From Leptolyngbyaceae cyanobacterium C42_A2020_001 (GTDB taxonomy: Bacteria > Cyanobacteriota > Cyanobacteriia > Leptolyngbyales > Leptolyngbyaceae): a DNA stretch of 64,000 nucleotides. Numbering within the stretch: the first letter of the stretch is position 1; each line of letters begins with the position of its first letter. The DNA is taken from NCBI GenBank assembly GCA_015272515.1, contig JACYLN010000009.1, forward strand, positions 1 through 64,000, in the 5' to 3' direction. A program made the translations under genes and the position numbers. The notes beneath the pieces were generated by a model that saw only the letters and a list, made by a program, of their open reading frames with translations, was not told the origin of the DNA and made no database searches. Shown piece after piece: positions 34,293 through 46,764 of the stretch.

Positions 34293-34490
34293 AATCTGAC
34301 TTTCAGGAATAAATGCTCTAACTTTTATCTTTTCAATTGCTGGCGCTTACCTTACTTCCGCCACAAATTCCTGTGGTCAAGCTAAGTATTGGTACCCACT
34401 GATGCGGTAGAATTTGACGGTTCCTAAGGTTAAAGTTTTGTTTTGTCCTTTTAGTCTGCCCTGAGCAGAGTGTGGTGTGTGATTGTGCAA

Positions 34491-36875
34491 ATGAACAAGA
34501 CGCAGTTATCTCCCCTTTTGGTGGCGTTACTGGCTGCATCCGCTACGGTGAGTCTGTCAAATTCTGCCACGGCTCAAACAGCCCGTTCCAAATCAGTTGA
34601 GGTGGAAACACCATTTCCCTCAAAGACGGTGAAATCAGTAGAGGCAAAATCGAAAAATTCCTTAGCGGACGCTACCACCCCTACGGATGTCACCACCAAA
34701 CCAAGCGATTCCTCTTCAGACGCGATCGCTCCCAGCATAATTCCAGTTCAACCTCTTTCGCCGATTGATTTATTGGGTCCACCACTCGTCGCCCAGTCTT
34801 CCCCTGGCGAAGCTCCCGACCGAATTCGCATCAATCCGCTTTCTCCAGGAACCCCTCAACCAACTGCACCTACGGTTCCAACTCCGGCTCCTACAACCCC
34901 AGAAGCTGAGCAAACCCCTACACCGACCACGCCAACCCCCACAGCGCCTTCGGAAACACCAACTCCCACCACACCCCCCGCCCAAACCGTTGACACCGAC
35001 CCACGAGTTTTGGTAGCTGAGGTTTTGGTCAGAGGCGTAGAGGGTACCTTTCAGGACGAAGTTTACAACGCGATTCAAACTCGTCCAGGGCGAACCACCA
35101 CCCGAACTCAACTGCAAGAAGACATCAATGCGATTTTTGCAACCGGGTACTTCTCAAACGTAAGAGCAGTTCCAGAAGATACTCCCCTGGGTGTGCGGGT
35201 AACGTTTGAAGTGGTGCTTAACCCAGTACTGCAATCAGTACAGGTTGAAGGTAACCGAGTGTTGCCGCAACAAGTGGTGACAGAAACCTTCACCGACCAA
35301 TACGGTAAGGTATTGAACCTCAACACCCTGCAAGAAGGAATTAAGCGCCTTAACAAGTGGTATCAAGATAACGGCTTTGTGCTAGGGCAAGTGCTGGAAT
35401 CTCCAGCCGTCTCTCCAGATGGGGTCGTCACTCTGCAAGTGGCAGAGGGAGAAGTTTCTAACCTGAGAGTTCGTTACATCAACAAAGAAGGGAATGAGTG
35501 TATTCGCAATGAGCAGGGACGATTTGTTTTAATTGAACCGGAAACAAAGCAGCCCGTTCTGGATAAAAATGGCAATCCCACAGGCTGCCGTAACCGGACG
35601 CGAGAATTTATTGTTACCCGCGAGTTTCAAACCAAGCCAGGAGATATTTTCAACCGAGCCGTGGTGGAACAAGACATCCAGCGAGTGTTCGGTTTGGGAA
35701 TTTTTGATGATGTGCGGCTTGCCCTGGAACCCGACCCCAATGACCCACGTAAAGTGGTGGTGGTGCCAACGATTGTTGAGAAAAATACAGGTTCAATTTT
35801 TGCAAGTGCTGGTATCAGTAGCGCCAGTGGTTTGTTTGGTTCGGTGGGCTATCAGCAGCAAAACGTGGGTGGAAATAACCAGAAACTATCTGCAGAAGTG
35901 CAAGTTGGGCAACGGGAACTGTTGTTTGATTTGAGCTTTACCGACCCCTGGATTGGCGGTGATCCTTTCCGCACGTCCTACACGGTTAACCTGTTCCGGC
36001 GGCGCACTATTTCGCTGATTTTTGATGGCGGCGATCCAGATATTGATTTGCCAAACGGGGATACTCCTCGAATTTTAAGAACGGGTGGATTTATCAGTTT
36101 TACCCGTCCGTTAAATGGTAATCCTTACATCCGTCCTGAATGGACTGCGTCTCTGGGTTTGCAATATCAGCGGGTTTCGATTCGCGATCGCGATGGCGAC
36201 CTCAGCCCCGTTGATCAATTAGGGAATGACCTCAGCTTCAGCGGTAGCGGACGAGATGATTTACTGTCAATTCAGTTTGGTGTCGTCCAAGACCGTCGAA
36301 ACGATCCATTACGACCAACCAGAGGCAGTTTTCTGCGGTTAGGGACGGAACAATTTATTCCCATCGGTTCTGGCAGTATTTTAGGCAACCGCCTGCGGGG
36401 AAGTTACAGTTTTTACTTACCGACCCAGTTGATTCGATTTACACGAGGCTGTCGGACTCCAAATCCAAGACCAGCAGATTGTCCCCAAACCTTTGCGTTC
36501 AACGTCCAGGGTGGTACGTTCCTGGGCGATCTGCCCCCTTACGAAGCGTTCTCATTAGGCGGAGCAAATTCCGTTCGAGGCTATGATGAAGGGGATCTGG
36601 CAGCAACCCGAAGCTATATTCAAGGAACGGTAGAATATCGCTTCCCAATCTTTTCCATCTTCTCTGGTGCCCTGTTTGTAGATGGAGCATACAACTTTGG
36701 CTCTCAGGGTCTGGTTCCTGGCAACCCAGGTGGCATTCGGAACAAGCCAGGAAGTGGTTATGGCTACGGGGTTGGTGTACGAGTTCAGTCTCCGCTAGGT
36801 CCCATTCGAGTTGACTTTGGAATTAATGACCAGGGAGATACCCAAGTAAACTTTGGTATTGGGGAGAGATTCTAA
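34491..36875 (+). CDS. Omp85/BamA-family outer membrane assembly protein
   Basis: A protein of 794 residues with a signal peptide ([22 protein letters not shown], cleavage after TAQ), a Pro/Thr-rich linker from about 100 to 170 ([17 protein letters not shown]), POTRA domains ([15 protein letters not shown] onward, with three repeats to about 460) and a C-terminal beta-barrel of surface-antigen type. [14 protein letters not shown] is the conserved barrel motif (VRGY) and the protein ends ...[12 protein letters not shown], with the terminal Phe. It inserts beta-barrel proteins into the outer membrane and is the relative of chloroplast Toc75. Its stop TAA overlaps the ATG of lpxC (TAATG), so translation is coupled. 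Confidence 0.94.
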
Positions 36876-38486: not shown

Positions 38487-39317
38487 ATGGCAACCCTAAT
38501 CCATTCAACTGCTGTAATTCATCCTGGTGCAGAACTACATCCCACCGTTGAGGTTGGTCCCTATGCTGTGATCGGCGAGAAGGTAAAGATCGGGTCGGAG
38601 ACGGTCATTGGGGCACATGTCGTACTGGATGGTTGGACTGAAATCGGGGCACGCAACCACATTTTTCCGGGAGCAGCGATTGGGCTAGCTTCTCAAGATA
38701 AGAAGTACGACGGAACGGATAGTTTAGTCAAAATTGGCGACGATAATCGGATTCGCGAGTTCGTTACGATCAATTGCGCGACTTACGCCGACGAGGTGAC
38801 GCTGATCGGCGATCGCAATCTGATCATGGCGTATACCCACGTGGCACACAACTGCGTCATCGAAGACCAGGTAGTCATCACCAACGCCGTTTCTCTGGGG
38901 GGGCATGTTCACATCGAGTCTCAAGCGCGAGTGGGCGGTATGAGCGGTATTCACCAGGGCGTGCGAATTGGGCGGTTGGCAATGGTAGGAGGCATGAGCC
39001 GAATTACCCGAGATGTACCTCCCTACACTTTGGTAGAAGGCAATGCAGCACGAGTGCGATCGCTGAACCTGGTGGGATTGCAGCGCGCTGGCTTACTAGA
39101 TCTCGACGATGGGCGGGTATTTCAATCGTTGAAAAAAGCGTTTCGGTTGCTTTATCGCTCTGGTTTGCCGCTCAACGAAGCACTCGTCAAACTCGAAACT
39201 TTGCTCGACAACGAATACGTGCAACACTTTCATCGCTTCCTGCAACTCTCTCAGCAAGAAGGTCGTCGCGGTCCCACGCCTGGGGCAAAAGTCGGCGAAG
39301 AGGCAGACGATGAGTGA
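38487..39317 (+). CDS. lpxA: UDP-N-acetylglucosamine O-acyltransferase
   Basis: LpxA adds a hydroxyacyl chain to UDP-GlcNAc to start lipid A. The 276-residue protein is a left-handed beta-helix of hexapeptide repeats (HPGAELHPTVEVGPYAVIGEKVKIGSE and so on) and has the catalytic His in YTHVAHNC. The GGMSGIHQGVRIGRLAMVGG region and C-terminal helices are typical. Tandem ACTCAC repeats precede the ATG. Its stop overlaps the lpxB start by 8 nt, so the two are translationally coupled. Confidence 0.96.
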   Translation: MATLIHSTAVIHPGAELHPTVEVGPYAVIGEKVKIGSETVIGAHVVLDGWTEIGARNHIFPGAAIGLASQDKKYDGTDSLVKIGDDNRIREFVTINCATYADEVTLIGDRNLIMAYTHVAHNCVIEDQVVITNAVSLGGHVHIESQARVGGMSGIHQGVRIGRLAMVGGMSRITRDVPPYTLVEGNAARVRSLNLVGLQRAGLLDLDDGRVFQSLKKAFRLLYRSGLPLNEALVKLETLLDNEYVQHFHRFLQLSQQEGRRGPTPGAKVGEEADDE

Positions 39318-40527
39318 AAAAAGAATTTTCATCAGCACGGGTGAGGTGTCTGGTGATCTTCAAGGAGCATTGCTGGTTCATGCTCTTAAACGGCAAGCCC
39401 AATCAGCGGGCATGAGCCTGGAGATTTTGGCGTTGGGGGGCGATCGCATGGCAAAGGCTGGAGCAACCCTGCTGGCCCACACCAGCGAGATCGGCTCTAT
39501 GGGGATTCTAGAATCCCTGCCCTTTGTTTTGCCCACCCTGCAAGTTCAAAATCAAGCAAAAACTTACCTGAAGCAGCATCCACCCGATGTCGTGATTCTC
39601 ATTGATTACATGGGACCGAACCTGGCGTTGTGCGAGTATTTTTACAAACAATCTTTGCCAACTCCAGTGGTGTATTACATTAGCCCGCAAGAGTGGGTTT
39701 GGGGAGACCAGTGGAAATGGGGCGTGAAGCTGTTTCGCTCTGATTTGATCGTGAAAGCGACGAAACAAGTGCTCGCTATTTTCCCAGCCGAAGCAGATTA
39801 TATGCGACGTAAGGGTGCTCAGGTGCGTTGGGTGGGTCATCCCCTGGTTGACCGAATGCAGACAGCCCATACCCGCACCAGTGCCCGCACTGCCCTCAAT
39901 CTATCAGCCAACCAACCCGTGATCACGCTATTGCCTGCCTCGCGTCAGCAGGAGATCAAGTATCTGCTGCCCGTCATCTGTCAGGCAGCACAACTGATTC
40001 AGCAGAAATTGCCAGAGGTATTGTTTCTGATTCCACTCGCCCTGGAGAAATATCGCCAACCGATTGAGCAAGCAATTCAGCACTATGGCTTGCAGGCAAA
40101 GGTGTTGTCAGATCAGGTCGGCACCCAAACTGAAGATCCGGCGGAGTCTGTGACATTACAAGCGATCGCCGCAGCGGATCTTGCCATCACCAAATCGGGC
40201 ACGGTGAATTTAGAAATTGCCCTGCTGAACACCCCGCAAGTCGTACTTTATAAGGTCAATGCGGTGACTGCCTGGATTCTCAAACACATCCTAAAATTCG
40301 CTATTCCCTTCATGTCGCCGCCCAACCTGGTGGCCATGAAAGCGATCGTGCCAGAATTTATGCAGGATCAGGCAACGCCCCAGAATATTGCTCAGGAAGC
40401 CCTCGACATTTTACTGAACACCGATCGCCGCCAAACGTTTTTAGACAATTACGCAGAAATGCGGCAGGTATTGGGAGAGCCGGGTGTGTGCGATCGCGCC
40501 GCTCAAGCAATCTTGCAACTGTTGTAA
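39310..40527 (+). CDS. lpxB: Lipid-A-disaccharide synthase
   Basis: LpxB joins UDP-2,3-diacylglucosamine and lipid X to form the lipid A disaccharide at the inner membrane. The 405-residue GT19 enzyme starts EKRIFISTGEVSGDLQGA and contains LALGGDRMAKAGATLL, DVVILIDYMGPNLALCEYF, YYISPQEWVWGDQW and the donor-site KSGTVNLEIALLNTPQVVLYKVN. The start ATG at 39310 overlaps lpxA. It is the last gene of the operon and converges on the TPS-CHAT gene, leaving only 13 nt between the stops. Confidence 0.95.
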   Translation: MSEKRIFISTGEVSGDLQGALLVHALKRQAQSAGMSLEILALGGDRMAKAGATLLAHTSEIGSMGILESLPFVLPTLQVQNQAKTYLKQHPPDVVILIDYMGPNLALCEYFYKQSLPTPVVYYISPQEWVWGDQWKWGVKLFRSDLIVKATKQVLAIFPAEADYMRRKGAQVRWVGHPLVDRMQTAHTRTSARTALNLSANQPVITLLPASRQQEIKYLLPVICQAAQLIQQKLPEVLFLIPLALEKYRQPIEQAIQHYGLQAKVLSDQVGTQTEDPAESVTLQAIAAADLAITKSGTVNLEIALLNTPQVVLYKVNAVTAWILKHILKFAIPFMSPPNLVAMKAIVPEFMQDQATPQNIAQEALDILLNTDRRQTFLDNYAEMRQVLGEPGVCDRAAQAILQLL

Positions 40528-40540
40528 CTATCTCATTGGC

Positions 40541-43500
40541 TTACCAGGGACTGCCGATCATCGTAAACGCCGCCCAGTAGTAAGGATGGCTCAAATTGGG
40601 GTTGCTCAGTTGCACCAGCGCAGGAGGCAAAGGAATGTCTTGTCCGCTAGCATCTCGCAGTCGCCCCACCTCAAACTTCACCTGCCCTTGTGCCATTGCA
40701 ATCTGTGCCTGACGCAGCGCCTCCGCTTTGATCGGGGCGGTTTGCAGTCGTCGATAAAACTCAGTCATCAGCCCCAACGTGCCCTCATCGCTCACATACC
40801 AGAGGCTTGCCAATGCCGATTTTACTCCAGCTTGCACAGCAAATCCGGCAAAACCCAGTTCGGCATCATCGTTACCAAACGCCGTTCGGCAGGCACTCAG
40901 TACCAACAACTCTACAGGCGGATTGCTCCAACCCAGTTGCCGCAGTTGATCCATTCGCAGTTGCATATCCCAAAGTTGGATGTAGGAATTGCTCAATGCT
41001 CCTGGTTGAAATTCGCCATGAGTCGCCAAATGCACAATCCGAAAGGCTCCTTGCTGGCGTTGAGCTTGCAAATTGCTGAGGGTAAAGTCCTGATTTAGAA
41101 ACGCTCGCCCTGCTCTCAGCCTGTTTGTAATGATACTCAGCTCTGTAGGCACCGCAGGTAAGGGCGGTTGGTCGGTAAATTCAGAAGCGCCCATTGCCAA
41201 AACCTGGGCATCCTTAACGCTGACAAAGCGTGTATTCGTCAAGCTCAAACTGGGCATCAGTCCGAGGCTATATCGCTCAATCAAGAACCGTTGCCCATCA
41301 TGCAATGCTGCTAAAGGAATAAAGCGCAATCCGCTATCGGCAATGAATGCCAGATTGGTGACTCGTCGCGCTTGCAATTCTGTTTCAATCGGTGCAATCA
41401 GCCATTGGTAAAGCTGTTGGGCGGGAGCCAGATAGGTTTGGGTACGGGTTTTGCGCGGGTCAGTGATTTCATTGAGAAAACTTTGAACGGTCGCCAACAC
41501 GCGATCGCGGGTTACGCCTGCCACTAATTTACGAATCGGTCGCCCCTCGGCTGTTATCACCAGCAGTTCCAGTTGATCAGTTGCTTGCTCACTTGCTCGG
41601 CCCCTGGAGTGAACTGGTGGGGTTTGGGCAATCAGACGATCGCTGGCAATCTCAGTTCCGCCAAACCGCCAGATCTCCTGGGAATTCATCGTTGATTGCG
41701 GACTGGATGCAGCCGTGAGAGCGGTCATTGTCGCTGTTTGAAGCCGTCTTGTGGCGATCGGTAATGAAGCTGACTCCAACCGCTGGGTTGCCACTGTTGC
41801 CGGAACAAAGTTGAGGTAAACCAGAGCCGGGCGAACTCCGGTTGTCGCTTCTACCTGGCGCAACGACTCATTGATAGTTGGGCGATTGCCAAGCTCTGCC
41901 TCAACGCCCAAATACGCTTCAAACTCTTCCGTAAATTCCTCTTCTGCCGACTCTTCAAATTCTCCTTCCAACGCATTTAAATCGGGCAAATTGGCATTGG
42001 CAAAATCATCAAATTGCTCCTCTTCCTCGTCGTTCGGTTCAATCTCGTCTGCCAGTTCATCCTGGTTGCGCGGGCGCACGCCGGGCAGAGTTAGCGTTCT
42101 AATTTGAATAGTGCCGGACGGTGAGCGATAGCCCTCTGGAAATACCAGGAGCGGCGGCGGAGTCAGTGCCTCTACCCCAGCCAGGATCGCGCCTGCGGTG
42201 CCGTTTTGGGTGCGATTGCCCACCACAAAAGGAACTCGCAACCCGCCACCACCGTAGGTAATCAGAACATTACCGGGGGCGATCGCGCCAGTTGTGTTAA
42301 TGGTGGGGGATGCAGTACCAGCAATGAATCCACTTCCCTCCACAAATCGCCCGGCTTGTAGGGTGACATTCCCCCCTAACCCCAGCGCACTGGTGGTATT
42401 GATGCTGCCAAAGCGCACGTCTTCCCTGAATCCTGGCGCAGATAGTTCCACATCGCCAGCTTGCACTGTGCCTGTGGTGATAATTTGCCCTGCCAAAATT
42501 GAGCCGCGATCGCTGCGTAGAATCACATCGCCGCCTCTGCCACCCTGCCCAGAAGCGGCGATCGTGCGGGTATTGATACTACCAACCGTCACATTGCCCA
42601 CACTGGCAGACAACGTGACATCGCCCCCATCATCCAACCGGGTAGAGGTATCAATATCACCTACTAAAATACTGGCTCCCGAAATCGTAATGGACGTTTT
42701 GGCCAGATCTGACGTTTTTAACACCACGCTAGGCGGAGCAACGAATGAGCCAAATCCGTTCTGGTCGGCATCGGTAGTGAAGGTAACCGATGTTGCCGCA
42801 GAAAAGGTAAGGACTTGATTGGGCGGCAGCAGCACTCGAATGTCGTTGGTCGCCTGAAGAATAACATCCCCCGTGATCAAGTCCAGGGTGGTTTGGGAGA
42901 GACGAAAGGTTTCCCCTGGATCGCTGGCAAAAATTTGTCCATTCGTCTCCAAGTCAATGTCATTTGGTGCAGAAGCACCAGGAACAATCTCAATGTTGGT
43001 GGGGTCTAGCAGCAGCGTACCAGAGCGTCCTGCCGGAGCCGAAGTATCGGTTTGCCCTTGATACACGAGGTTGCGCTTGCCGGATACTTCTACCAAGCCT
43101 CCATTGCCGCCACGATCGCCCCCGCGGGCAAAAATCGAGCCAGAGAAGCGAGTCGTGTCGTCTGCCCAAATGATTACCTTGCCGCCGTTTGAAAAGCCGG
43201 GAGCCAATCCATTAGCGCTGATCTGAGTGCTGGAGTCCACAAACGTAGACATGGCATTGGGAACAGTTCCTTGCCCCTGATAGTCGCCACCAATGCGAAT
43301 GGTGCCGCCGTTTGTGCCCGAAGCCGCGATCGCCGCTTGCACGAGGGCAACATTGGTTCCTAAAAGATTGATTGAGCCGGGAGCCAGATCGGGAGTCAAA
43401 TCACTAACGCTCACCTGTCCGCTGATCAAAGTCGTTCCAGAAGCAGTGGGCAAGGAAAGGGATGCCCCTGCCAATCGTAAACTGCCATCGGAGTTCACCG

Positions 43501-44371
43501 TTACCTGGGTGGCATTGTCAAGGGTCCCGCCTGTCAACAGTTGGGGGAGCGATCGCGGGCTGGGAGTTACCAAGCCAATGTCTGCTGTCGTAATTGGACC
43601 TAATTCCAAACTCAGTAAACTTCCAGGCTGGCTAATTCTGACCAGATTTTGTCCGGGAACTGATGCAACGGTAATTTGTCCGCTGGGGGCAGAGAGTTGT
43701 CCAACATTGAGCACGTTACCAGCCAGCAGCAGCAGAGCTTGTCCGGTGGGCACCGCCAAATTGCCGAAATTGGCGATCGCTCCTGGTGCCACCGATGTAA
43801 ACGCATATACAGTTGGTTGCCCGTTTAAACTGCTATAGTCATTGGCTGCGTTGGCATTAAACCATAACGATCCATCATTCAGTGAATCGGAACTTGCGTT
43901 GCCAAACCCAAGTCGGTTCGCGGTTGTTGCCGTAAAGGATGCTGGAACATTCAAGCTGGCATTAGGTCCAAACAAAATTCCGGCTGGATTCAACAAAAAC
44001 AAGTTGGAATTGCCACCAGCGACTTGAATTCGTCCATCAATAATGGAAACATTACCACCCGTTACTCGCGCCAGAATGTTTTGAATTGTGGGATTTGCTA
44101 GAAAAGTTGCGACTTGCCCTCGACTTAATCCAAATTCAGCAAAACTATGGAATAAGTTTGCACCGTTTCCAGACACCCGTCCGCCATTAATCGTAATTTG
44201 GTTGTTTTCAACTACGGTGTATGTTCCTGTGCCATCCGGGGCGGGAACAATGAGTTGAGCATGAACTAGTGAGGGTGACAACAACCCAGCAATCCACGTG
44301 AACGATAGGGCTGGAAATAATGCCTTAAAAGGCGCAGCAAAGTCAAAACCGCGATCGCAAAAACAGTTCAT
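40541..44371 (-). CDS. Secreted haemagglutinin-type (TPS) and CHAT-domain fusion protein
   Basis: A 1276-residue protein. After a short cysteine-bearing N-terminus a signal peptide (AALFPALSFTWIAGLLSPSLVHA type, ending VHAQ) leads into a TPS domain (NLFHSFAEFGLSRGQ, NLFLLNPAGILFGPNA), the secretion domain of two-partner exoproteins. A long Gly/Ser/Thr-rich beta-repeat region follows, then an acidic linker near 770-850 (EPNDEEEEQFDDF). The last 370 residues are a CHAT domain with catalytic His1118 in HLATHGEF and Cys1161 in LSACRTAFG. Start ATG at 44371; an earlier TTG at 44389 is possible. No TpsB transporter gene is adjacent. Similar fusions exist in other cyanobacteria; targets are unknown. 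Confidence 0.92.
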   Translation of the reverse strand: MNCFCDRGFDFAAPFKALFPALSFTWIAGLLSPSLVHAQLIVPAPDGTGTYTVVENNQITINGGRVSGNGANLFHSFAEFGLSRGQVATFLANPTIQNILARVTGGNVSIIDGRIQVAGGNSNLFLLNPAGILFGPNASLNVPASFTATTANRLGFGNASSDSLNDGSLWFNANAANDYSSLNGQPTVYAFTSVAPGAIANFGNLAVPTGQALLLLAGNVLNVGQLSAPSGQITVASVPGQNLVRISQPGSLLSLELGPITTADIGLVTPSPRSLPQLLTGGTLDNATQVTVNSDGSLRLAGASLSLPTASGTTLISGQVSVSDLTPDLAPGSINLLGTNVALVQAAIAASGTNGGTIRIGGDYQGQGTVPNAMSTFVDSSTQISANGLAPGFSNGGKVIIWADDTTRFSGSIFARGGDRGGNGGLVEVSGKRNLVYQGQTDTSAPAGRSGTLLLDPTNIEIVPGASAPNDIDLETNGQIFASDPGETFRLSQTTLDLITGDVILQATNDIRVLLPPNQVLTFSAATSVTFTTDADQNGFGSFVAPPSVVLKTSDLAKTSITISGASILVGDIDTSTRLDDGGDVTLSASVGNVTVGSINTRTIAASGQGGRGGDVILRSDRGSILAGQIITTGTVQAGDVELSAPGFREDVRFGSINTTSALGLGGNVTLQAGRFVEGSGFIAGTASPTINTTGAIAPGNVLITYGGGGLRVPFVVGNRTQNGTAGAILAGVEALTPPPLLVFPEGYRSPSGTIQIRTLTLPGVRPRNQDELADEIEPNDEEEEQFDDFANANLPDLNALEGEFEESAEEEFTEEFEAYLGVEAELGNRPTINESLRQVEATTGVRPALVYLNFVPATVATQRLESASLPIATRRLQTATMTALTAASSPQSTMNSQEIWRFGGTEIASDRLIAQTPPVHSRGRASEQATDQLELLVITAEGRPIRKLVAGVTRDRVLATVQSFLNEITDPRKTRTQTYLAPAQQLYQWLIAPIETELQARRVTNLAFIADSGLRFIPLAALHDGQRFLIERYSLGLMPSLSLTNTRFVSVKDAQVLAMGASEFTDQPPLPAVPTELSIITNRLRAGRAFLNQDFTLSNLQAQRQQGAFRIVHLATHGEFQPGALSNSYIQLWDMQLRMDQLRQLGWSNPPVELLVLSACRTAFGNDDAELGFAGFAVQAGVKSALASLWYVSDEGTLGLMTEFYRRLQTAPIKAEALRQAQIAMAQGQVKFEVGRLRDASGQDIPLPPALVQLSNPNLSHPYYWAAFTMIGSPW

Positions 44372-44845
44372 TAACGCAGTCCGAATCAAAGGTGTGCTAT
44401 CCCATGTGCAATACTTCTAAGACCGTCATTCTAAACAAAGTTGGGTGCGGAATCCGCCAGAATGAGATTACTCTACTCCGCCACAGTAAGTCGATAAAAA
44501 GTTTAATGCTGATAGCAACACTTCGAGTAACAGCACAGAACGCTTTTGTTCTATCTTACGGTGGTTGTAATTTCAGCACAGCCATAATGTAAAGCAACCC
44601 CTGTTTGTTCTCTGGAATAAGCAATCAAAAAAGGAGTATTCATACCTCTTTGAGAGAATTTTTGAAGTTGACGGAAACCATCAGTTGCCAACGCTATCGC
44701 AACATAAACCAGTTGTACACGTGTATAAATAAGAATTTGTTAAAGGCAATGACAAGGTTTCTGAAACAGAGTAGCAATGTCACTGGTGTTTCCTGTGCAA
44801 CTATGTTGTGTCCCTATTGCAAGCACCCTTGAGGAAACTGGGCAA
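44372..44845. other. Gene-free stretch between TPS-CHAT and the REC-GGDEF gene
   Basis: 474 nt that must hold the promoters of two divergent genes. A -10-like TATAAAT occurs at 44724-44730, but without a clear -35 at the right distance. I saw no long ORF on either strand and no strong inverted repeat. An in-frame extension of the downstream gene up to 44777 is possible but unlikely. Confidence 0.6.
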
Positions 44846-45919
44846 ATGAACAACCGTCAAGCCAGGGGGGAGCGAGGCAATATATTGGTTGTAGATGACA
44901 TTCCAGACAACCTTGATCTGCTTTGCAGCTTGTTAAGCCGTAAGGGATTTAGTGTTGCAGTCGCAGATAGCGGCGTAACGGCGTTGCAGATGATTGAGGA
45001 GAACGTGCCAGACCTGATTTTATTGGATATTTGTATGCCCCAAATGGATGGGTATGAAGTGTGTCAGGCGTTAAAGAATAATCCTTTTACTAAAGATATT
45101 CCTGTAATCTTCATTAGCGCTCTGGATGAAGTGTTGGATAAAGTGAAGGCGTTTCGGGTTGGTGGGGTTGATTATATTACCAAGCCGTTTCACATGGCAG
45201 AAGTACTTGCCAGAGTGAACAGCCATATTGCAATTCATCAACTTCAAAGACAGTTGGAAGAACAGAATGAACTGTTGCGCCAGGAAATTCGCGATCGCCT
45301 GGCTGCCGAAACCGCGCTTCAAGTTGCCAACCAAGAACTTCAACGGCTTGCTCACATGGATGGGCTAACTCAAGTTGCCAATCGCCGCAACTTTGATAGC
45401 ACCCTGGCACAGGAATGGCGTAGATTAGCGCGGGAACAGCAATACCTGTCGTTGATTTTGTGCGATGTCGATTTCTTCAAACGGTATAACGATACCTACG
45501 GTCATCAAGTAGGAGATGACTGCCTGCGAAACATTGCTAGCTCAATTTCTACAGCGCTTAAACGTCCCAGTGATTTAGTGGCTCGCTACGGTGGTGAAGA
45601 GTTTGCGGTGATTCTGCCAAATACCCCCCTGCAAGGGGCAACCCATGTGGCGAGAGAAATTCAGGCAGCAGTTCGGACACTGGGCATGACTCACAGCGGG
45701 TCTAGTGTCAGTAAGTTTGTAACGTTAAGTATCGGCATTTCGTCTGTGATTCCACTGGCTAAATTCTCGCCCATGTCGCTGGTTGCGGCGGCTGATCGAG
45801 CACTATACCGAGCCAAATTAGAAGGACGCGATCGCATCTGTGCCGAGGAAGTGCATTACCGGGTCAAGGATGAAATTGTGCTTGACGATTCTGATGATTT
45901 AGAACTGAGCAATGAATAA
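44846..45919 (+). CDS. Response regulator with diguanylate cyclase domain (REC-GGDEF)
   Basis: The 357-residue protein has an N-terminal receiver domain: acidic pair Asp17-Asp18 (LVVDDIPDN), phosphoacceptor Asp61 (LLLDICMPQMDG), Ser91 and Lys113 (ITKPF). A coiled-coil linker at 125-165 leads into a GGDEF domain with active-site GGEEF at 249-253. The inhibitory I-site RxxD (Arg240-Asp243) lies five residues before it, so product feedback is likely. It makes c-di-GMP in response to a sensor kinase that is not present here. ATG at 44846 is preferred over upstream starts because GAGGA lies about 10 nt before it and NILVVDD follows closely. Confidence 0.94.
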   Translation: MNNRQARGERGNILVVDDIPDNLDLLCSLLSRKGFSVAVADSGVTALQMIEENVPDLILLDICMPQMDGYEVCQALKNNPFTKDIPVIFISALDEVLDKVKAFRVGGVDYITKPFHMAEVLARVNSHIAIHQLQRQLEEQNELLRQEIRDRLAAETALQVANQELQRLAHMDGLTQVANRRNFDSTLAQEWRRLAREQQYLSLILCDVDFFKRYNDTYGHQVGDDCLRNIASSISTALKRPSDLVARYGGEEFAVILPNTPLQGATHVAREIQAAVRTLGMTHSGSSVSKFVTLSIGISSVIPLAKFSPMSLVAAADRALYRAKLEGRDRICAEEVHYRVKDEIVLDDSDDLELSNE

Positions 45920-45946: not shown

Positions 45947-46669
45947 TCAAACGTAGTCTGAAACATCTTCTCCACAGTCATCTGCCAAATAAGAAAGCGC
46001 ACGAAACCGCAACCCCACCAGTTGTTCATAAAGTGGATTAATTTTGCAAAGCGGTGGGATATGCACCAGTTTCCGTCCAAACAGGGTAATATCTCGCTCA
46101 AAAGGGCATTGGGAGGGAATCAACTTGCACAACATGCGAGCAACTTTTGGATCATGGATTTCCATACTGTCTAACCAATCCCGCACTGGATACAGCACAT
46201 CCAACTGGTCTTGGGCTGATAGAGGAGTTAGGGGTAACGCTTCACCACTGGGTGTAACTTGGGCGAGAGTCCCATCCTCATAGGGTTGGGCATCTGCCAG
46301 ATTTTGCAACGCAGTTCGCAGAACTTGCAAGGCTTCGGGCTTCTGGTTTAACACCTGACAATACCGCATTAGCATCGCATCCTCGCTGGCTGAATAATCG
46401 CCATCTGCCAAAGCCACCATCACAGCGGTTCGCAAAAAGTTTTCAGCCAGCTTCGCATCTTGCCCCAATACACCTGCTAGTTCACTATCTGTTACTGGCT
46501 TCAGGGCTTGAGACTTTTCTTCTTCCGACAAGTTCTTGTGGAGTAAACCTGTAATCAGTTCTTGTTCTTCTGAATCAAAATGCCCATCTGCCCAAGCCAG
46601 CGCAATTAAGCCACGAATCCAAACGGCGGTTTGCTCGTCAGTATAAGAAGATTTGATAGTTTCACTCAT
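45947..46669 (-). CDS. TerB-like plus Mo-dependent nitrogenase C-terminal domain protein
   Basis: A 240-residue protein. The first 130 residues are TerB-like: repeated ALAWADGHFDSEEQELI and VMVALADGDYSASEDAMLM motifs with acidic D-x-D-x-D/E metal sites. The C-terminal 80 residues, from VRDWLDSMEIHDPKVARMLCKLIPSQCPFERD through HIPPLCKINPLYEQLVGLRFRALSYL, match the domain named Mo-dependent nitrogenase C-terminal, which is widespread in cyanobacteria and not itself evidence of nitrogen fixation. The start is ATG at 46669 with GAGAAG upstream. Convergent with the GGDEF gene, with 27 nt between the stops. Function unknown. Confidence 0.82.
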   Translation of the reverse strand: MSETIKSSYTDEQTAVWIRGLIALAWADGHFDSEEQELITGLLHKNLSEEEKSQALKPVTDSELAGVLGQDAKLAENFLRTAVMVALADGDYSASEDAMLMRYCQVLNQKPEALQVLRTALQNLADAQPYEDGTLAQVTPSGEALPLTPLSAQDQLDVLYPVRDWLDSMEIHDPKVARMLCKLIPSQCPFERDITLFGRKLVHIPPLCKINPLYEQLVGLRFRALSYLADDCGEDVSDYV

Positions 46670-46764
46670 CTCACTTCTCAGACACGTATTTCTCTCCGAG
46701 AAGATTCTAGCTCGTTCTTTCGCGAACTTAACGGTAAACTGAGAGACTGTACCCATTCCCAACG

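Follow-up and report, generated by a model that had tools for sequence, protein, structure and literature searches.

The stretch of DNA analysed here (the window; 64,000 nucleotides, positions 1 to 64,000 of contig JACYLN010000009.1 of Leptolyngbyaceae cyanobacterium C42_A2020_001) carries a gene in which a two-partner secretion (TPS) domain and a CHAT protease domain share one open reading frame, raising the question of what a caspase-like protease might do on an exoprotein, and where. A first-pass annotation had recognised this TPS-CHAT fusion, and Pfam and NCBIfam confirm it; its context, however, had to be corrected, as the gene does not stand alone: cyanobacteria have a large and, it seems, unstudied family of this kind, to which it belongs as an ordinary case (at least 536 confirmed relatives in a scan of named genomes). 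The explanation favoured here, with moderate confidence, is that TPS-CHAT is a cysteine protease of the outer cell surface, which leaves the cell through a shared TpsB and probably trims TPS-type surface proteins. More than the single gene, the main result is the systematic association of TPS, TpsB and CHAT.

This association was counted in five relatives with few contigs, using a circular-shift test (2,000 shifts, 6 kb distance). Nine of 38 TPS genes are fused to CHAT, and 16 of the 29 non-fused ones have a CHAT gene within 6 kb, as against 1.0 expected and a maximum of 6 in the shifts (two of the 16 pairs, both in G007, may be frame-broken fusions). TpsB lies within the same distance of just 4 of these 29, so that in this sample TPS genes adjoin CHAT oftener than they adjoin TpsB. 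Two replicon sizes in the test are approximate, and the one that was checked is larger than assumed; the expected count is therefore conservative. CHAT is thus a regular neighbour of TPS genes, and the linkage suggests that it regularly partners TPS secretion, either fused or as a separate exported protein (the non-fused, TPS-linked CHAT proteins are TPR-CHATs, carrying tetratricopeptide repeats). One of the G007 pairs, on the second replicon (L206:2196-6591), consists of a TPS frame followed by a CHAT frame with a TPS-type beta-repeat N-terminus and is probably a frame-broken fusion.

A search of the window's own genome for TpsB genes and paralogues of the fusion, as the first-pass annotation had envisaged, gave 12 TPS matches, 24 CHAT matches, two TPS-CHAT fusions and three TpsB genes, none of them adjacent to the window gene. 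The same genome holds a same-strand TPS-TpsB-CHAT run whose genes lie 22 and 13 nt apart (L028) and which recurs in the sister species G002, as well as a same-strand TPS-CHAT pair 20 nt apart (L030), an overlapping same-strand CHAT-TPS pair (L027) and a looser CHAT/TPS pair (L029). Elsewhere, TpsB and CHAT are paired without a TPS neighbour (L201, as a same-strand overlap, and L202), fusions adjoin TpsB (L107, L110, L132 and L135), and a conjugative Nostoc plasmid carries ShlB, CHAT and filamentous haemagglutinin (FHA)-type genes in one same-strand run (L207; NZ_CP151101.1 102665-110200). Plasmid pP742401 of Gloeothece citriformis (L208) has a CHAT gene and an opposite-strand sulfotransferase gene, followed by an FHA-type gene and a BamA/TamA gene.

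The window gene and the parts of its product are as follows.

40541..44371, minus strand: TPS-CHAT fusion gene, an open frame of 1,276 amino acids from the ATG at 44371 (Pfam TPS and CHAT); a TTG six codons upstream is an alternative start in the same frame.
44258..44371, minus strand: signal-peptide-like N-terminus, residues 1-38, a hydrophobic stretch followed by an AxAQ-like end (...LVHAQ), judged by eye.
43580..44218, minus strand: TPS secretion domain, residues 52-264, with an NPAGI motif (Pfam E 1.8e-40, far above cut-off; NCBIfam FHA N-terminal domain TIGR01901; phmmer; model).
42194..43579, minus strand: beta-helix shaft, residues ~265-726 (predicted parallel beta structure; EtpA and HxuA matches).
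41921..42061, minus strand: acidic linker, residues 771-817, acidic in one subclade only.
41234..41974, minus strand: N-terminal half of the separase/Csx29-like protease region, residues 800-1046 (AlphaFold2 model; disordered loop 889-916).
40544..41233, minus strand: putatively active caspase-fold half of CHAT, residues 1047-1276 (Pfam CHAT; caspases and MALT1 align to this half).
41018..41020, minus strand: predicted catalytic His1118, motif HLATHG (sequence conservation).
40889..40891, minus strand: predicted catalytic Cys1161, motif LSACRT (sequence conservation).

The N-terminal part of the protein resembles established TPS exoproteins. EtpA was matched by sequence (phmmer, E 2e-16), and in a model of residues 38-817 (mean pLDDT 71.5, below that of the protease part) the secretion domain scores Z 27.3 against that of EtpA and Z 26.7 against that of HMW1, and the shaft Z 22.7 against that of EtpA, while HxuA gives Z 20-22 over the N-terminal model. 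The beta-repeat region seen by the first-pass annotation is accordingly predicted to be a TPS-type right-handed beta-helix, EtpA, HMW1 and HxuA all being matched at a mean pLDDT of only 71. These members of the TpsA family serve in adhesion or haem acquisition and have no protease domain; they share with TPS-CHAT the TPS domain, the beta-helix and a TpsB in the genome, but their TpsB is usually adjacent. No TpsB adjoins the window gene, as had been stated from the start, and the Omp85 protein that comes closest, at 34470-36875, has three POTRA domains and is of the BamA type.

Several observations make an outer-surface or extracellular location, reached via TpsB, quite likely. The signal-like stretch, which is consistent with the signal peptide of the first-pass annotation, is common to most relatives as judged by eye. 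Across 116 cyanobacterial genomes of at least 95% completeness, TpsB is present in all 90 that bear TPS, and TPS is absent from all 19 that are TpsB-negative. In two genomes fusions are the only TPS proteins: G038 holds a pair of them and a lone, distant TpsB, and G004 a single one (L114), likewise with one TpsB. Because these fusion-only genomes each keep one TpsB, the fusions are most simply read as being served by a shared, remote pore. Furthermore, Cys1161 is the sole cysteine of the window protein after the signal region; the catalytic cysteine is likewise alone in 14 of 45 and 34 of 67 fused proteins in two overlapping sets, odd cysteine counts are found in 40/45 and 56/67 of these, and the extra cysteines are mostly paired, 4-8 residues apart, at lineage-specific sites. 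Disulfides formed in an oxidising compartment, with the catalytic thiol left free, would be expected to give such a pattern. Together with the three TpsB genes and the EtpA/HMW1-like structure, the co-occurrence and the cysteine pattern lend good inferential support to the surface protease, secreted through a remote TpsB, that had been proposed. The accompanying premise that CHAT proteases act inside cells proved a poor one in this case. Among 13 high-scoring CHAT proteins of the own genome, ten or more begin with an export-signal-like segment (judged by eye), and since they do so, extracytoplasmic CHAT appears to be the rule in this genome.

Export across the inner membrane could also be the end of the journey. 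In this rather unlikely alternative, the TPS part stays in the periplasm, or acts as a sensor or plug, and CHAT serves as a regulated protease in envelope signalling or cell death. The exported TPR-CHATs without a TPS domain, presumably periplasmic, would suit it, as would the alignment (by VIA) of CHAT with the transmembrane anti-sigma factor DdvA, on which a literature search for DdvA and CHAT found nothing useful. It is opposed by the strict co-occurrence of TPS and TpsB, by the retention of TpsB where only fusions remain, and by the NPAG-type TPS domain, which is intact and under purifying selection.

Turning to the protease, Pfam CHAT covers residues 982-1274 (E 3.9e-74, far above cut-off), and residues 800-1276 were modelled with AlphaFold2 from 41 relatives at a mean pLDDT of 90.5 (loop 889-916 is of low confidence). 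Craspase TPR-CHAT aligns over the whole of this model (Z 27.7, 328 residues, 3.0 A), as does separase (Z 25.4, 316 residues, ~14% identity); gingipains reach Z ~18. Because TPR-CHAT and separase align with the whole stretch, and caspases and MALT1 with the last 230 residues only, the modelled protease is of the two-domain separase type. The Pfam scan reports CHAT and no Peptidase_C14 p20 domain (metacaspase/orthocaspase), nor any TPR in the TPS-CHAT protein; membership of Craspase (Csx29) was rejected, as the TPR region is missing. Csx29 shares with TPS-CHAT the two-domain separase-like protease with its His and Cys, but it is a TPR-bearing cytoplasmic protein that Cas7-11 switches, whereas TPS-CHAT has an export-signal-like N-terminus. 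Separase, whose fold is common to the whole C-terminal 477 residues, differs as a eukaryotic cohesin protease. Gingipains are extracellular cysteine proteases that process surface proteins, and RgpB and Kgp have the clan CD fold in common with TPS-CHAT, but they use type IX secretion and lack a TPS domain. HetF is a cyanobacterial CHAT protein whose conserved active site is required for function (PMC8406250), though it is a membrane TPR-CHAT of the divisome and not a TPS exoprotein. A defence-system reading was also rejected, PADLOC giving just a weak BovA match (E 0.02).

The His1118 and Cys1161 claimed by the first-pass annotation are present, and the dyad is kept in 45/45 fused relatives of a first set (extracted from 40 stretches and the own genome) and, HMATH spellings counted, in 67/67 of a second (from 79 named loci). 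The two sets partly overlap, so that the resulting 112 of 112 refers to sequences scanned; the residues have not been lost in relatives, a loss that the first-pass annotation had named as refuting its reading. His1118 is also kept in 13/13 non-fused CHATs, and dN/dS of CHAT is ~0.07-0.1 in three pairs of relatives. These sequences indicate selection for an intact protease, and CHAT is quite likely to be active as one. The alternative, namely that CHAT is catalytically idle and kept as a binding module, is improbable. CHAT-fold non-proteases such as ciliary central-pair proteins are among the structural matches; the dyad, however, is unchanged in every fused protein scanned, although the sequences otherwise vary over most of their length.

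The gene is flanked by two plus-strand genes.

39310..40527, plus strand: lpxB-like gene, convergent on the 3' end of TPS-CHAT (named from sequence; 89% identical in G002).
44777..45919, plus strand: response regulator-GGDEF gene, divergent from the 5' end of TPS-CHAT (Pfam).

A TPS domain with a C-terminal enzyme, and several fusions per genome, would also be compatible with a contact-dependent effector, in which CHAT is a toxic protease tip sent into neighbouring cells in the manner of CdiA. This is very improbable. Identity to the window protein is 56-75% in CHAT, 34-50% in the shaft and 17-35% in the linker, i.e., CHAT is the most conserved segment of TPS-CHAT proteins, the opposite of polymorphic tips. 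Behind CHAT lies the convergent lpxB-like gene instead of an immunity-type gene, and separate exported TPR-CHATs adjoining TPS genes do not fit. A CdiA-type polymorphic toxin was hence rejected for its wrong conservation pattern and missing immunity gene, and the action in neighbouring cells that the first-pass annotation had entertained is unsupported.

In the favoured explanation of a surface-processing protease, Sec would carry TPS-CHAT over the inner membrane, as its N-terminus suggests; the TPS domain would be recognised by one of the three TpsB pores of the genome; the beta-helix would fold outside as a shaft with CHAT at the tip; and CHAT would then mature, release or trim surface proteins of the TPS type, whether its own exoprotein or that of a neighbour. 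TPS-type proteins are put first as substrate because CHAT is linked to them; their processing is the likeliest job, although the substrate is a guess and is proposed tentatively. There is precedent for dedicated enzymes of TPS exoproteins, such as SphB1, a protease maturing Bordetella FHA, and the glycosyltransferase HMW1C of Haemophilus HMW1. These are separate, unrelated enzymes, whereas the protease of TPS-CHAT is fused or adjacent and a family 2 glycosyltransferase (GT2) is fused in some relatives.

Weighing against this explanation are several points. CHAT folds include non-protease relatives, hence an intact dyad is no proof of activity; the linkage by itself names no substrate of CHAT; the linker alignment has no conserved cleavage site; signal peptides were identified by eye; neither the cysteine counts nor the co-occurrence figures take account of relatedness; and the gene has been lost in the sister species G002, hence it is dispensable. 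The main rival is self-cleavage, whereby a cut made by CHAT in its own chain, within the linker or the 889-916 loop, frees the adhesin or the protease, as clan CD processing domains do. The C-terminal position of CHAT behind a flexible, fast-evolving linker is suited to this, and the chain stops exactly at a conserved GxPW with no anchor past CHAT. Nevertheless, self-cleavage is judged unlikely: many CHATs are separate proteins adjoining TPS genes, so cutting in cis is not required, and a common cleavage site in the linker was dropped, as none was seen.

Beyond the single protein, TPS exoprotein, TpsB and CHAT may form a general extracytoplasmic module in cyanobacteria, in which separase-fold proteases, either fused or as exported TPR-CHATs, mature or remodel surface proteins; this broader proposal is possible, though held with less than even confidence. 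CHAT is known mainly as an intracellular switch (Craspase, separase-like proteins, HetF), and here it seems to be standard equipment of a secretion pathway, phylum-wide. If true, a class of separase-type proteases would operate outside the cytoplasm, and many CHAT proteins of cyanobacteria would have this as their main function. Cyanobacterial CHATs would then be testable as surface-processing enzymes, and the hunt for substrates could begin at the adjacent TPS protein.

With respect to the family, TPS and CHAT halves occur repeatedly in common open frames in the 39 relatives searched. Among the matches listed, all 79 named loci are cyanobacterial, the scan having taken in no other phyla; hosts include Nostoc, Anabaena, Oscillatoria, Microcoleus, Leptolyngbya, Symploca, a Gloeomargaritales genome and others, and the fused proteins span 1,000-2,800 residues. 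The earlier remark that such fusions exist in cyanobacteria without an established role was right but understated, a literature search linking CHAT with TPS or filamentous haemagglutinin having found no such publication. The acidic linker noted at first is real (29 D/E against 6 K/R in the 120 residues preceding the protease region), but the alignment limits it to a few relatives, most other linkers being Pro-rich; it was rejected as a defining trait.

On the CHAT tree, two state changes suffice for the fused proteins, and L040, a short exported CHAT protein of the own genome (472 amino acids, 50% identical, no TPS domain), groups with the fused clade. The fusion thus probably had essentially one origin, from an exported CHAT, for which an L040-type protein is a plausible donor; separate origins were set aside, two changes being compatible with one origin. 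In G002, the lpxB-GGDEF-TerB gene order is preserved and only a 43-residue, stop-containing TPS remnant lies between lpxB and GGDEF (L194:4608-5398), the whole gene and not merely its catalytic residues having been lost. Because only this decayed remnant is left, the gene appears to be accessory in its genus. In the window, no Rfam elements were found, promoter and terminator matches were not above chance level, and one protein (45947-46762, minus strand) combines TerB/DUF533-like regions with a Mo-dependent nitrogenase C-terminus domain.

Another layout is seen on contig C138 of the own genome (L025:4750-9492, minus strand), where a single open reading frame holds a GT2 domain and an internal signal-like segment ending AxAQ, followed by TPS, shaft and CHAT. 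The same order is found in L075, L076, L078, L081, L084, L089, L090, L095 and L102, and the GT2 part of these frames is under purifying selection. L075, the closest relative of the window protein, has GT2, and the window protein is without it. The layout would place a cytoplasmic enzyme ahead of a secreted one.

Lastly, a peptide from liquid chromatography-mass spectrometry, SLSLLGGTVV, has been attributed to a Nostoc sp. NIES-2111 CHAT protein (PMC9895726). It is found inside the TPS domain of the TPS-CHAT fusions L079, L115 and L167, a weak, single-peptide hint that TPS-CHAT proteins are made.

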